From: a virus
Length of the DNA stretch: 42,260 bases
Direction: 5' to 3' (one strand)
IMG/VR virus record: IMGVR_UViG_3300020468_000017
Span: 1 to 42,260 of that record
Shown here: one piece after another, positions 15,848 through 19,213 of the stretch
Position numbering within the stretch: position 1 is the first letter of the stretch
Layout: each line of letters begins with the position of its first letter
Notes under the pieces: model-generated
Told to the model about the DNA's origin: nothing
The model's database searches: none
Seen by the model: the letters and a program-made list of their open reading frames with translations, nothing else
Position numbers and translations under genes: made by a program

Positions 15848-16825
15848 CTAATTTAGACTTTCTTGTTGTTGTTTTTCGTATAATAGTCTTGCCTCAATTT
15901 TGGCTTTTCTATCTACGTTTTTGTTTTTCATGCCTTTAATTCTTTCGGCAAGATTTTTAGGATTATAAATAACTAGCCCTGTACTATTAGTTCTAATTAT
16001 TTCTGCGTCAGTAATATTAAGACCAAGTTCAGTACAAAGTTCCAATGCCTCGTCTAAATATTTATAACCTTTAAGACCAACTTTAATTTCTTTCATTTGG
16101 TCTAAAACAGATTGTATCCATTTTTGGTGTGCAATAACAAATTGACCTTTTGCCTGTTTCCAAGAAATTAAAAAGTTAAACTCTTGTTCATTACAAGCAA
16201 TAGACCTATCTCTACAATAATCTCTACCAATTAAATCTAATTGATATTTCTCATTCCATTGTTTGCCATAGCCACTATCTTTGTCGCCAAGATATTTATT
16301 ATTGTTATCACAATATTTTGTTTTGTGAGGGTTGTTATCTTTTCCCTCCTGTTCAATCAAAATATCTGGGTTGCAATCTTCCTGTGCTTTTAACTCATCA
16401 CGAAACAAAGCATAACCATATTGATTATCACTATGATAAGACGAATTGCTATCAGTATCAAAATCGCCATTTAATTTAAAATCAAAATGCTTTTCAATTT
16501 GTGCATCTTCAATTTTTAAATTGTTGTCATAATCTCTAGTTTCTTTTTTACCCATATAGTGAAAATGAAAACAACTATCTTTTGCAATCGTACTTACATT
16601 TTCAAACTTATTTTGTAAGTAGTATGCTTTTTCAACATCATCTTCAGTATAATGTTTTCGCACAATTTTTTCTGCCACTTTCCATGCGTCATCATTTATC
16701 TGAATTTGATTTGCTTTCAGTTCGTCATACTTTTTCTTTTCCTGTGTATCTTCTTGCTCTAAATGTACTCTCATTCTATTAGCAATCTTATTACGATACT
16801 CGGAATTTAATCGTATTCTACTCAT
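15848..16825 (-). CDS. hypothetical protein, 325 aa
   Basis: The ATG at 16825 (MSRIRLNSEYRNKIANRMRVHLEQ) has AAAGGA just upstream; the frame could extend 12 codons further. The N-terminus is basic and helical. A region near 75-90 reads NVSTIAKDSCFHFHYMG, and the middle is Asp/Asn/Lys-rich and low in hydrophobics. I recall similar sequences in marine phages with no function assigned. It is the first gene of the leftward run that leads to the terminase, so it may be an early regulator or host-interaction protein; that is a guess from position. Confidence 0.6.
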   Translation of the reverse strand: MSRIRLNSEYRNKIANRMRVHLEQEDTQEKKKYDELKANQIQINDDAWKVAEKIVRKHYTEDDVEKAYYLQNKFENVSTIAKDSCFHFHYMGKKETRDYDNNLKIEDAQIEKHFDFKLNGDFDTDSNSSYHSDNQYGYALFRDELKAQEDCNPDILIEQEGKDNNPHKTKYCDNNNKYLGDKDSGYGKQWNEKYQLDLIGRDYCRDRSIACNEQEFNFLISWKQAKGQFVIAHQKWIQSVLDQMKEIKVGLKGYKYLDEALELCTELGLNITDAEIIRTNSTGLVIYNPKNLAERIKGMKNKNVDRKAKIEARLLYEKQQQESLN

Positions 16826-16954
16826 GTTTCCTTTCGGTTGATTGTTTTTATTTATTTGCATAAAAATTAATTTATACTATTGAATTTATTTGTAAAGGGA
16901 TTATATAAGATATTATGTTATTATTTATAAAAACTTAATACTAAATGAAAGTTA

Positions 16955-17090: not shown

Positions 17091-17120
17091 CTACAACTAG
17101 AAAAATTTTTATTTTTTTTT

Positions 17121-17224
17121 GGGTGGGCCCGCCCGGGCTCCTCATAATTGTTTTTTTTGGGTGGGCCCGCCAGGACTCCCCATAATGTTTTTTTTTGGGT
17201 GGGCCCGCCAGGGCTCCTCACAAT
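17121..17224. repeat. three tandem 38-bp units of GC-rich repeat with T-tracts
   Basis: Copies start at 17121, 17159 and 17197, exactly 38 bases apart. Each has a 28-base conserved part beginning GGGTGGGCCCGCC and ending with a CATAAT-like end. Each is followed or preceded by about ten bases that are mostly T. The three copies differ at only a few positions. A fourth copy is at 14408. The period is not a multiple of three, so this is not a coding repeat. Iteron-like origin, packaging site or transcriptional element are possible roles. Confidence 0.85.
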
Positions 17225-17237
17225 GGCCGCGAGCCAG

Positions 17238-17300
17238 CAAGCTTGTCAAGTAAATTATTTTTTTTATTATCTTGCATCTGGGATTAAATAGGATATATAT
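17238..17300 (+). promoter_or_regulatory. promoter region for the 73-aa gene
   Basis: AGCAAGCTTGTCAAG at 17236-17250 is the same CAAGCTTG(A/T)CAA block as precedes the two following genes. TTGCAT (17272-17277) and TATATA (17294-17299) lie 16 bases apart and would start transcription near 17306. That leaves an untranslated leader of about 80 bases before the ATG at 17384. The leader is GC-rich (GCCGCCGCCG) and could fold. Confidence 0.5.
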
Positions 17301-17383
17301 ACAGCTGGATCAGTTATCGCGCCGCCGCCGCTATTGCACAGGTAACCTGGCCTTATCTGGTCCATAACAAAAGGAGAAATAGT

Positions 17384-17605
17384 ATGAAAGTTAAAATAAA
17401 TATAGAATGGAGAAAAAGCAAACAGGAACCCGAGGCGCCTGAATACGTTATTCGAGACGCTTTGAAAATGGCCGGCTGGACTGTCGGACATATCGAGACT
17501 CAAGGCGTATGGGATGAAGACAAACCCGCAACGCCTCAAGGGCCGTGGAACCAGGACCGGCTGCCACATGAATGGATTGTCGATGGGTTTCTTACTGGGA
17601 AATAA
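17384..17605 (+). CDS. hypothetical protein, 73 aa (first gene of rightward cassette set)
   Basis: AAAAGGAGAAATAGT directly precedes the ATG, an excellent ribosome-binding site. The product starts MKVKINIEWRKSK and continues VIRDALKMAGWTVGHIETQGVW, with a C-terminal PHEWIVDGFLTGK. It is small, soluble and Trp-rich. No family is recognised. It is on the strand opposite to the large flanking operons, has its own promoter block and is followed 8 bases after its stop by a GC-rich hairpin. Base use is more GC-rich than the flanking leftward genes, which suggests acquired DNA. Confidence 0.65.
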   Translation: MKVKINIEWRKSKQEPEAPEYVIRDALKMAGWTVGHIETQGVWDEDKPATPQGPWNQDRLPHEWIVDGFLTGK

Positions 17606-17612
17606 ATTTAGA

Positions 17613-17633
17613 GGCCGGCCCGCTGGGCCGGCC
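17613..17633. terminator. GGCCGGCCC hairpin after 73-aa gene
   Basis: GGCCGGCCC (17613-17621) and GGGCCGGCC (17625-17633) form a perfect 9-bp all-GC stem with a GCT loop, 8 bases after the stop codon. No T-tract follows. It should be very stable and may end or protect the 73-aa transcript. Confidence 0.6.
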
Positions 17634-17667
17634 GCTGCACGCGCCCGGGATCCAGGACGTTGGGCCG

Positions 17668-17703
17668 CAAGCTCACAAGCTGCAAGCCTGCAAGCTCTCA
17701 AGC
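17668..17703. repeat. CAAGC array, five copies at 7-8 bp spacing
   Basis: CAAGC occurs at 17668, 17676, 17683, 17691 and 17699. The last copy merges into AGCTTGACA, the -35 box of the following promoter. The regular spacing and direct abutment on a promoter suggest a regulator-binding array; this is inference. Confidence 0.75.
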
Positions 17704-17732
17704 TTGACAATGGATCTGGGATATTGTAAGAT
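17704..17732 (+). promoter_or_regulatory. sigma70-type promoter for 76-aa gene
   Basis: TTGACA (17704-17709), a 17-base spacer and TAAGAT (17727-17732) form a near-consensus promoter. The spacer contains CTGGGATATT. Transcription should start near 17739, giving a short leader that holds AAGGAG before the ATG at 17753. Confidence 0.7.
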
Positions 17733-17752
17733 AATTAAAAAGGAGAAATAAT

Positions 17753-17983
17753 ATGGACAATAAAGACTACACAAGACGTAACAGGTTCAACGGTGAAAGC
17801 GTTGAACTTACACCCGAGGAAGCTAAGCGCCATGATGACATTTTTTATTATGAAGCTCTTGCCACACTCGAGGATAAAAAGGCAGGCATCGATGGCACTT
17901 CCAAACTTTGGGATAAGGTGCGAAGTAACCTGGATTGGTTCAGACAGCACAACGCCAAAGCTTATATGGTGTTATTAGACTAA
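17753..17983 (+). CDS. hypothetical protein, 76 aa (second rightward cassette)
   Basis: The ATG follows AAAAAGGAGAAATAAT, almost the same leader as the 73-aa gene. The acidic product begins MDNKDYTRRNRFNGE and includes LTPEEAKRHDDIFYYEALATL, then GTSKLWDKVRSNLDWFRQHN. It appears helical and soluble. No family is recognised. The stop overlaps by one base a further ATG at 17983. Confidence 0.65.
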   Translation: MDNKDYTRRNRFNGESVELTPEEAKRHDDIFYYEALATLEDKKAGIDGTSKLWDKVRSNLDWFRQHNAKAYMVLLD

Positions 17984-18213
17984 TGAAAAAAAATAGATAC
18001 AATGCAGCCGGACCAGCAATGGTCCGGGTGCTGTTAATACATTCAGACTGGCTCAGGGACAATGGCCACAAGCTACAAGCCACAAGCTGTAGAGCTCAAG
18101 CCGCAAGCTTGACAAGGAAATATTATTGTCGTATAGGATATTATAAGAAAGGAAAAATTACTTATGTTAATAAAAGAAGCAAAAAAAATAATTATATCAT
18201 TAAGCAAGCCTGA
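17983..18213 (+). CDS. doubtful 76-aa ORF read through a promoter cassette
   Basis: An ATG overlaps the stop of the 76-aa gene (TAATG) and opens a frame starting MKKNRYNAAGPAMVRVLLIH. It then translates the CAAGC array (HKLQATSCRAQAASLT), the -35 and -10 boxes and the ribosome-binding site of the next gene, and ends 50 bases inside that gene. The coupling supports translation; the passage through hairpin, repeat and promoter argues that only the first 25-30 codons, or none, matter. It may be a leader-type peptide. Confidence 0.35.
   Translation: MKKNRYNAAGPAMVRVLLIHSDWLRDNGHKLQATSCRAQAASLTRKYYCRIGYYKKGKITYVNKRSKKNNYIIKQA
18008..18027. terminator. CCGGACC hairpin after 76-aa gene
   Basis: CCGGACC (18008-18014) pairs with GGTCCGG (18021-18027) around a 6-base loop. 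It stands 25 bases after the stop of the 76-aa gene, matching the hairpin position after the 73-aa gene. No U-tract follows. Confidence 0.5.
18069..18108. repeat. CAAGC array, five copies at 7-bp period
   Basis: CAAGC occurs at 18069, 18076, 18083, 18097 and 18104, all on a 7-base register with one degenerate unit at 18090. As in the upstream cassette, the last copy runs into AGCTTGACA. Confidence 0.75.
18109..18137 (+). promoter_or_regulatory. sigma70-type promoter for GP88-like gene
   Basis: TTGACA (18109-18114), a 17-base spacer and TATAGG (18132-18137) lie directly after the CAAGC array. The -10 region continues as GGATATTATAAG. A ribosome-binding AAAGGA follows at about 18149, before the ATG at 18164. 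Confidence 0.65.
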
Positions 18214-18781
18214 CAAGATGCCTGGATATGCTTACGGCATACCGGCGCCAGAATGCAAAACTGGCTCAAAGCTCAGGTTAATTCCTAACAGCGTCTGCGC
18301 TGGCTGTTATGCCATGAAGGGTAACTATATTAGATTTCCTGAAATTATGAAGGCGCAATATAAAAGACTGGCAGCGTTGCAGGACCCGCGCTGGGTAGAT
18401 GCGATGGCCACTGTTATAAACTCACGAGCCGTGAGCAAACATAAAGTTTTTAGATGGCACGACGCCGGCGACGTGCAAGACCTGGACCACCTGAACAAGA
18501 TCTTCGAGGTGTGCAGGTTAACGCCGGGTATGCAGCACTGGATGCCAACGCGTGAAGCCTGGATAAGGGACCACCTTGAGCGATGTCCAAAAAATTTAAT
18601 TATAAGATTATCAATGACAATGATTGACCAGGCAGCCGCTGGGAGCTGGCCGCATACGTCGACTGTTACCACGAAGCCAGGCGCTCGAACCTGTCCGGCC
18701 CCGGACCAGGGCGGCCAGTGTGGCAGCTGTAGACAGTGCTGGTCTCATGATGTAACTAATATCAGTTACGGTAAACACTAA
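18164..18781 (+). CDS. GP88-family Cys-rich protein, 205 aa
   Basis: The sequence shows LSKPDKMPGYAYGIPAPEC, KLRLIPNSVCAGCYAMKGNY (about residues 38-57), FRWHDAGDVQDLDHLNKI (about 99-116), WMPTREAW and a C-terminal cluster CPAPDQGG, CGSCRQCW, then VSYGKH-like NISYGKH. This order matches the phage/actinophage gene product 88 family as I know it. The paired Cys clusters suggest a bound metal or Fe-S centre. The family's biochemical role is not established. The gene has its own promoter and ends in a TAATG overlap with the next frame. It uses more G and C than surrounding genes, consistent with transfer. Confidence 0.75.
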   Translation: MLIKEAKKIIISLSKPDKMPGYAYGIPAPECKTGSKLRLIPNSVCAGCYAMKGNYIRFPEIMKAQYKRLAALQDPRWVDAMATVINSRAVSKHKVFRWHDAGDVQDLDHLNKIFEVCRLTPGMQHWMPTREAWIRDHLERCPKNLIIRLSMTMIDQAAAGSWPHTSTVTTKPGARTCPAPDQGGQCGSCRQCWSHDVTNISYGKH

Positions 18782-18990
18782 TGTTTAGATCCCCGAAGTA
18801 TTATGCAGAGCTTAGGAAGAACGTCAGGCAGCAAGCTAGCAAGCTCACAAGCTCTCAAGCAAACGAACCGAGGGTTCGAGCCCGCAAGCCAAAGGCTCAA
18901 GCTTCAAGCCAGAGTCCACAAGCTCCAGGATCCTCGAGCCTGGGTACAAGCGAACCTTCCCCTTGTCCGGGGTACAAGCAACAAGGATAA
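18781..18990 (+). CDS. 69-aa ORF reading through CAAGC repeats
   Basis: The ATG overlaps the stop of the GP88-like gene (TAATG). The first residues, MFRSPKYYAELRKNVRQQ, look like a true protein start; the rest is Ser/Ala/Gln/Pro-rich (ASKLTSSQA, KPKAQASSQSPQAPG) and is the direct translation of the CAAGC repeat cluster. Its last 146 bases lie opposite the coding end of the VRR-NUC-like gene. It may be a real small protein with a low-complexity tail generated by the repeats, or a spurious extension. Confidence 0.4.
   Translation: MFRSPKYYAELRKNVRQQASKLTSSQANEPRVRARKPKAQASSQSPQAPGSSSLGTSEPSPCPGYKQQG
18832..18979. repeat. CAAGC cluster, about ten copies
   Basis: CAAGC occurs at 18832, 18840, 18848 and 18856 (8-bp period) and then irregularly at 18884, 18898, 18905, 18919, 18947 and 18975. 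Small hairpins such as CGAACC/GGTTCG are interspersed. Unlike the two upstream arrays it is not followed by TTGACA. It lies in the convergent overlap between the 69-aa frame and the nuclease gene. Confidence 0.7.
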
Positions 18991-19213
18991 ATGTATTCAA
19001 ATTATGTTTCATGTGAAACGCTATTTGGTGGGGTGAAAAGCGTATTTTATTAACTAATGTTAACTTTAACTCAACAGTGAAAAACCTGCCAGAATCATTA
19101 TAACCCAATAGATCGGGAGTGCCCAATAAGCTACGGTTTTCCAGTCTTGTCCAACTAATTTTACTTTTAATTCCTTTAAGCTCACGCCATAAATCCTTTT
19201 CTAATTTAATCAA
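18845..19213 (-). CDS. VRR-NUC-like PD-(D/E)XK nuclease, 122 aa
   Basis: Residues 27-50 read RSLLGTPDLLGY and FFTVELKL, giving P33, D34, E48 and K50 of the PD...ExK active site. A conserved-type Gln (Q63 in SPHQIAFH) follows. Length and order match VRR-NUC/Holliday-junction-resolvase-like nucleases found in phages. The substrate is probably branched or flap DNA. The last 30 residues (SGLKLEPLACGLEPSVRLLESL-like) are coded by the reverse strand of the CAAGC repeat cluster and are unlikely to be part of the fold. It converges on the rightward cassette set. Confidence 0.75.
   Translation of the reverse strand: MIKLEKDLWRELKGIKSKISWTRLENRSLLGTPDLLGYNDSGRFFTVELKLTLVNKIRFSPHQIAFHMKHNLNTFILVACTPDKGKVRLYPGSRILELVDSGLKLEPLACGLEPSVRLLESL

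Follow-up and report, generated by a model that had tools for sequence, protein, structure and literature searches.

The window, as the whole stretch of 42,260 bp analysed here is called, can be assigned by its large terminase (terL) and its gene set to the HTVC027P-like SAR11 podoviruses. The large terminase shares 67.7% identity with its HTVC027P counterpart and 59% with the HTVC023P one, and the gene order is largely common to the window and these two phages, with a matching set of replication genes. Phages of the HTVC023P type are widespread killers of SAR11. Nearly all genes of the window are directed leftward, with the exception of one short rightward stretch between the replication genes and terL, in which rows of the pentamer CAAGC are found in front of and behind small genes (Table 1).

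Table 1. Features of the rightward cassette and its neighbours, in coordinates of the window.
Feature	Positions	Strand	Remarks
P337, 337-aa protein	15848-16861	-	divergent neighbour of the cassette; homologue of HTVC027P gp35
Weak promoter version	17238-17270	+	single CAAGC (17238-17242) fused to TTGTCA, 16-bp spacer, TATTAT; before the 73-aa gene
73-aa cassette gene	17384-17605	+	family F36, assigned by eye from sequence
GC-rich hairpin	17613-17633	+	stem 9, no T-run
CAAGC array 1	17668-17703	+	five units, steps 8, 7, 8, 8
Promoter fused to array 1	17704-17732	+	TTGACA 17704-17709, 17-bp spacer, TAAGAT 17727-17732; then AAGGAG and ATG 17753
76-aa cassette gene	17753-17983	+	homologue: HTVC027P gp39
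Hairpin CCGGACCA-GCAA-TGGTCCGG	18008-18027	+	no T-run
CAAGC array 2	18069-18108	+	five exact units and one degenerate, steps 7, 7, 14, 7
Promoter fused to array 2	18109-18137	+	TTGACA 18109-18114, 17-bp spacer, TATAGG; then AAGGA and ATG 18164
GP88-family protein (PF17338), 205 aa	18164-18781	+	near-constant gene of the cassette; E 2.8e-23
69-aa ORF	18781-18990	+	overlaps the GP88 stop, contains the tail arrays
Tail CAAGC arrays	18832-18923	+	two clusters of four (18832-18860, 18885-18923), no -35 box or promoter
Resolvase/nuclease-like ORF	18845-19213	-	convergent, 3' end overlaps the tail arrays

Past CAAGCTTGACA, in which both upstream arrays terminate, a spacer of 17 bp leads to the -10 box, and a ribosome-binding site and a gene come next. 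This order had been described in an earlier note made from the letters of the window, and it was confirmed at both places. Five matches to CAAGCNNCAAGC are present in the window, compared with a mean of 0.08 in shuffled sequences, none of which reached five. The regular spacing of five units at 7-8 bp that the earlier note had given for both arrays holds for array 1, but array 2 includes a double step and a degenerate unit. A shorter version had also been reported in front of the 73-aa gene, and it does exist, but only in the weak form listed in Table 1; relatives of this gene lie on the strand of GP88 and have an array in some cases. The two tail arrays behind GP88 had been overlooked. The resolvase/nuclease-like ORF that converges on them is kept even in array-less relatives such as HTVC023P; the tail arrays, read in reverse, encode its C-terminus, and in L162 this yields a leucine-rich, heptad-like tail. 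In many relatives, a tiny ORF of about 23-60 aa (HxxWLxxNGYKxQAAS-like) extends into the array before GP88; its counterpart in the window lies at approximately 18019-18090 (family F9), with its end read from the array. Upstream of the cassette, at 17110-17225, three direct repeats are found which combine a T-run with GGGTGGGCCCGCC, a sequence with a palindromic core. The word GGGTGGGCCC is seen again before the arrays of some relatives, namely in 8 of the 202 upstream regions compared.

A hairpin had been proposed as the first element of the repeated unit. Both hairpins of the window are real, and neither carries a T-run. Among the 202 upstream regions of the comparison, a stem of at least 7 was present in only 34% (6% in shuffles) and a hairpin with a T-run in 3%, which means that the hairpin does not belong to the unit consistently among relatives. 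As terminators the hairpins are weak candidates, since a T-run is missing from both and terminator-like sites occur at chance level.

The check suggested with the first description, a search of phage contigs for CAAGC rows beside TTGACA with a listing of the genes downstream, was run on IMG/VR. Three units fused to TTGACA were found in at least 119 stretches, and a composition-matched control word in none. In a collection of 84,980 genomes there were seven matching stretches, three of them Pelagibacteraceae SAG/MAG contigs with a phage terminase (terL), two of which also carry GP88; the terL check covered these three contigs, and a further positive genome, G131, lies outside them. The array was absent from 195 of the 197 Pelagibacteraceae genomes scanned. 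As these genomes are array-free and the SAG/MAG contigs carry a terminase, the array is a property of the phages and not of the host chromosome, and an origin of the arrays in the host is ruled out.

The position of the arrays is fixed with respect to GP88. At GP88-bearing loci, 373 arrays are on the strand of GP88 and none on the opposite strand, and all of them together span about -2.2 to +1.25 kb from the GP88 start; whole-genome scans show one array place per genome. The array stretch is GC-rich over about 1.9 kb, with a GC content (mean over 38 loci) of 0.43-0.49 between -400 and +1000 bp as opposed to 0.32-0.37 in the flanks. A single place and orientation per genome, and the fact that the arrays adjoin terS, would also suit a replication origin or packaging site, where the rows would serve as iterons for an initiator or TerS and the promoters as the transcriptional part of the origin. 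This is quite unlikely, as the arrays are repeated before several cassette genes and tied to that place, the window shows no switch in GC skew beyond what gene direction brings with it, and HTVC023P is array-free (no match to three consecutive CAAGC units exists in HTVC023P or 023Pt_psg01).

The geometry of array and promoter is equally consistent. A 17-bp spacer fits the "TA" of the -10 box in 86% of the fused promoters (n=146 distinct), and an ORF with a ribosome-binding site is found downstream of 136 of 142 arrays. In 34 loci chosen by GP88 alone, at least two CAAGC occur within 150 bp upstream in 28 and the exact fusion of array and -35 box in 19. The earlier statement that in every case the last CAAGC runs into the -35 box is too strong in two respects. 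Some relatives hold their units inside the spacer between -35 and -10 (TTGACAAGC...) instead of before the -35 box, and many arrays follow GP88 and are promoter-less, as is the case in 181 of 189 distinct GP88 loci.

The units themselves consist of a constant five-base core and varying spacers, as would be expected of binding sites. Arrays contain 3 to 18 units, and their spacers may be 2 or 3 nt long. Adjacent spacers were identical in 5.9% of cases in promoter (upstream) arrays, with 10.0% expected (sd 0.9), and in 3.1% of cases in tail arrays, which lack a fused -35 box, with 8.1% expected (sd 0.6). Because neighbouring spacers are alike less often than chance would make them, the arrays are not a slippage microsatellite. 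Neutral repeat growth that came to abut promoters by chance could produce the range in unit number and the extension of arrays into coding ends, but recent duplication should leave neighbours that resemble each other, which is the opposite of the pattern seen, and position and strand are fixed over deep divergence; this explanation, already disfavoured, has next to no weight left. Where the core differs, it appears to differ in promoter and tail alike: CAGGC is used in both in L146/L147 and a 4-bp AGC lattice in both in L148-L150. Such a concerted change of the core, with promoter and tail of the same type wherever both can be read, is suggestive, the lineages in question being few. A 4-bp lattice of (A/G)AGC in place of CAAGC heptads near GP88 was seen in L148-L150 and L122.

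The sense orientation of all arrays and the tolerance for spacers of 2 or 3 nt could also be explained by an element that acts in RNA, where CAAGC rows of sense transcripts would be recognised by a ring-like RNA protein or pair with GCUUG RNA, the fusion to the -35 box being a by-product. We regard this as very unlikely. An upstream array is not transcribed from the promoter to which it is fused, RNA folding around array 1 does not exceed that of shuffled sequences, and the orientation would be fixed by common descent alone.

The genes behind the fused arrays are diverse. They comprise 213 ORFs in 42 families, half of the ORFs being GP88 and the remaining cargo mostly small proteins of 37-185 aa; a few singleton families from unrelated genomes are chance matches. 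The proposals that the cargo varies among relatives and that a modular unit is reused before many unrelated small genes, in the direction opposite to the long operons, have thus held up. The 76-aa family serves as a natural experiment. At 16 loci this gene lies inside the GP88 cassette, with a fused array in 13, and another 93 loci have it on the opposite strand as part of the terL operon, a fused array being present in none of them, although the sequences are related and the counts are accordingly not independent. Its homologue gp39 in HTVC027P is an array-free member of the terL operon. The contrast between 13 of 16 and 0 of 93 shows that the array follows the slot and not the gene. In the gene tree of the family, at least three changes of place are forced by supported branches, and seven are placed on the best tree; a sign test on independent pairs had too few pairs for significance.

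Repeated changes of place by the 76-aa gene also bear on the possibility that the arrays provide short shared homology for gene swapping in the manner of the T4 PeSLs, with expression control as a secondary matter. The location of arrays between variable genes and flanking them on both sides would fit such a recombination tract, as would the GC island. This is nonetheless unlikely, since recombination would require neither a precise join with the -35 box nor a spacer of 17 bp, and spacers that are more diverse than chance keep the uninterrupted homology short.

The array is a real and widespread cis element that labels one slot, defined by its place, for small genes that can be exchanged. Literature searches on phage arrays of CAAGC or of heptanucleotides returned nothing relevant, and as far as our searches reach the element has not been described before.

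The reading that we favour is a plug-in slot of HTVC027P-like SAR11 phages in which the CAAGC row is a multi-site operator for a phage-encoded protein that times the expression of small genes, and we give it a probability of somewhat above one half (about 0.55). The slot between the replication genes and terL, set against the direction of the main operons, would take in small genes around GP88, each usually served by a separate promoter of sigma-70 type with a CAAGC row (steps of 7-8 bp) joined to its -35 box. A phage-encoded DNA-binding protein would occupy the row as a multi-site operator, and this binding would set the slot genes to an early-to-middle schedule distinct from that of the operons. 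The row after GP88 may offer the same protein further sites. The sequences show the fused geometry, confinement to a single place and strand, cargo that varies, arrays acquired along with the place rather than with the gene, and spacers unlike those that slippage would leave. We infer the array-binding protein, its phage origin, the sign of its control and its being the binder of the tail row as well. A role of the arrays in promoters only does not explain the promoter-less array after GP88 in so many loci. Against the operator reading, host sigma-70 would seem able to use these -35 and -10 boxes unaided.

Expression data are available for the isolate HTVC027P. RNA-seq of this phage during infection of HTCC1062 resolved early, middle and late clusters as well as an "extra cluster 2", which consists of exactly gp33 and gp34, with high or peak expression at 6-9 hpi (PMC12753301). 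These two are also the only genes with fused arrays in the HTVC027P genome, and gp33 is the homologue of GP88 (54.6%). The cluster resembles the cassette in its GP88 homologue and its fused arrays, and in this isolate a separate expression timing has been observed. The difference is that PMC12753301 reports the cluster without mention of promoters, as judged by a text search; nor does it list the tail gene gp32 in the extra cluster. The earlier note had suggested a single regulator for the cassette genes; there may be one, and a cluster shared by gp33 and gp34 is what would be expected of it. The two genes are same-strand neighbours, however, and could share one transcript, so that their common cluster is no proof of control by the arrays. 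The published label of gp34 (46 aa; L121, 17530-17670) as Pdase_C33_assoc was not reproduced, with no Pfam match up to E 1. Overall, the interpretation given in that note is partly supported.

Co-occurrence points to P337 as a candidate for the array-binding factor, which amounts to a guess. The protein, 43% identical to HTVC027P gp35, was found in 100 of the 105 GP88 loci that bear arrays and have a sufficient flank, and GP88 and arrays are present in 56 of 56 P337 relatives with at least 1.5 kb upstream, these sets having been partly chosen for arrays or P337 and such linkage being obtainable from neighbourhood alone. P337 is absent from HTVC023P and 023Pt_psg01, the two phages noted above for having no row of three CAAGC units, and three loci of the GP88-chosen set have an array without P337. 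The family is strongly conserved, with 434 stretches in IMG/VR. It has no Pfam or PHROG match, and a fold search with its AlphaFold model (pLDDT 81) gave nothing convincing. The neighbouring GP88 is a cysteine-rich protein with seven invariant cysteines, and its model (pLDDT 92) has only weak fold matches, with radical-SAM enzymes at the top (Z up to 6). GP88 as the sole cause of the arrays is rejected, as array-free GP88 relatives exist in Roseobacter and Caulobacter phages. A bolder version of the favoured reading, which we consider possible though doubtful, is a regulon that is defined by place, open to new genes and shared by a widespread group of SAR11 phages. In it, one phage regulator would recognise the CAAGC heptads both in the promoter arrays and in those behind GP88, and this regulator would represent a new type of DNA-binding protein, possibly P337.

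Among known systems, the promoter early stem-loops (PeSLs) of T4-type phages are comparable in the accounts relayed by PMC4503421 and PMC4177764 (Arbiol 2010, Comeau 2014). On those accounts, both are promoter-bearing intergenic units reused before unrelated small genes in a variable region, and both use host sigma-70-type promoters. The constant part here is the CAAGC row fused to the -35 box, whereas the stem-loop varies; the phages that carry the unit are SAR11 podoviruses and not of the T4 type, and they have it in a single slot around GP88 only. The array cassette works like a PeSL as so described, but it lacks two of the defining features and is therefore not filed as one. Operators with several sites upstream of or within promoters are well known, examples being the MraZ repeat boxes and the paired operators of lambda CI. 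The cassette shares with them short direct repeats at fixed steps that abut the -35 box and a second, distant cluster, and differs in its unit of 5 bp at steps of 7-8 bp, its free spacers and its up to 18 units.

If the array is a tag for separately timed, swappable genes, it would flag likely host-takeover genes by position alone. The genes under it would form a testable regulon in the cultured pair HTVC027P/HTCC1062, and the array would account for the odd two-gene expression cluster published for this phage.
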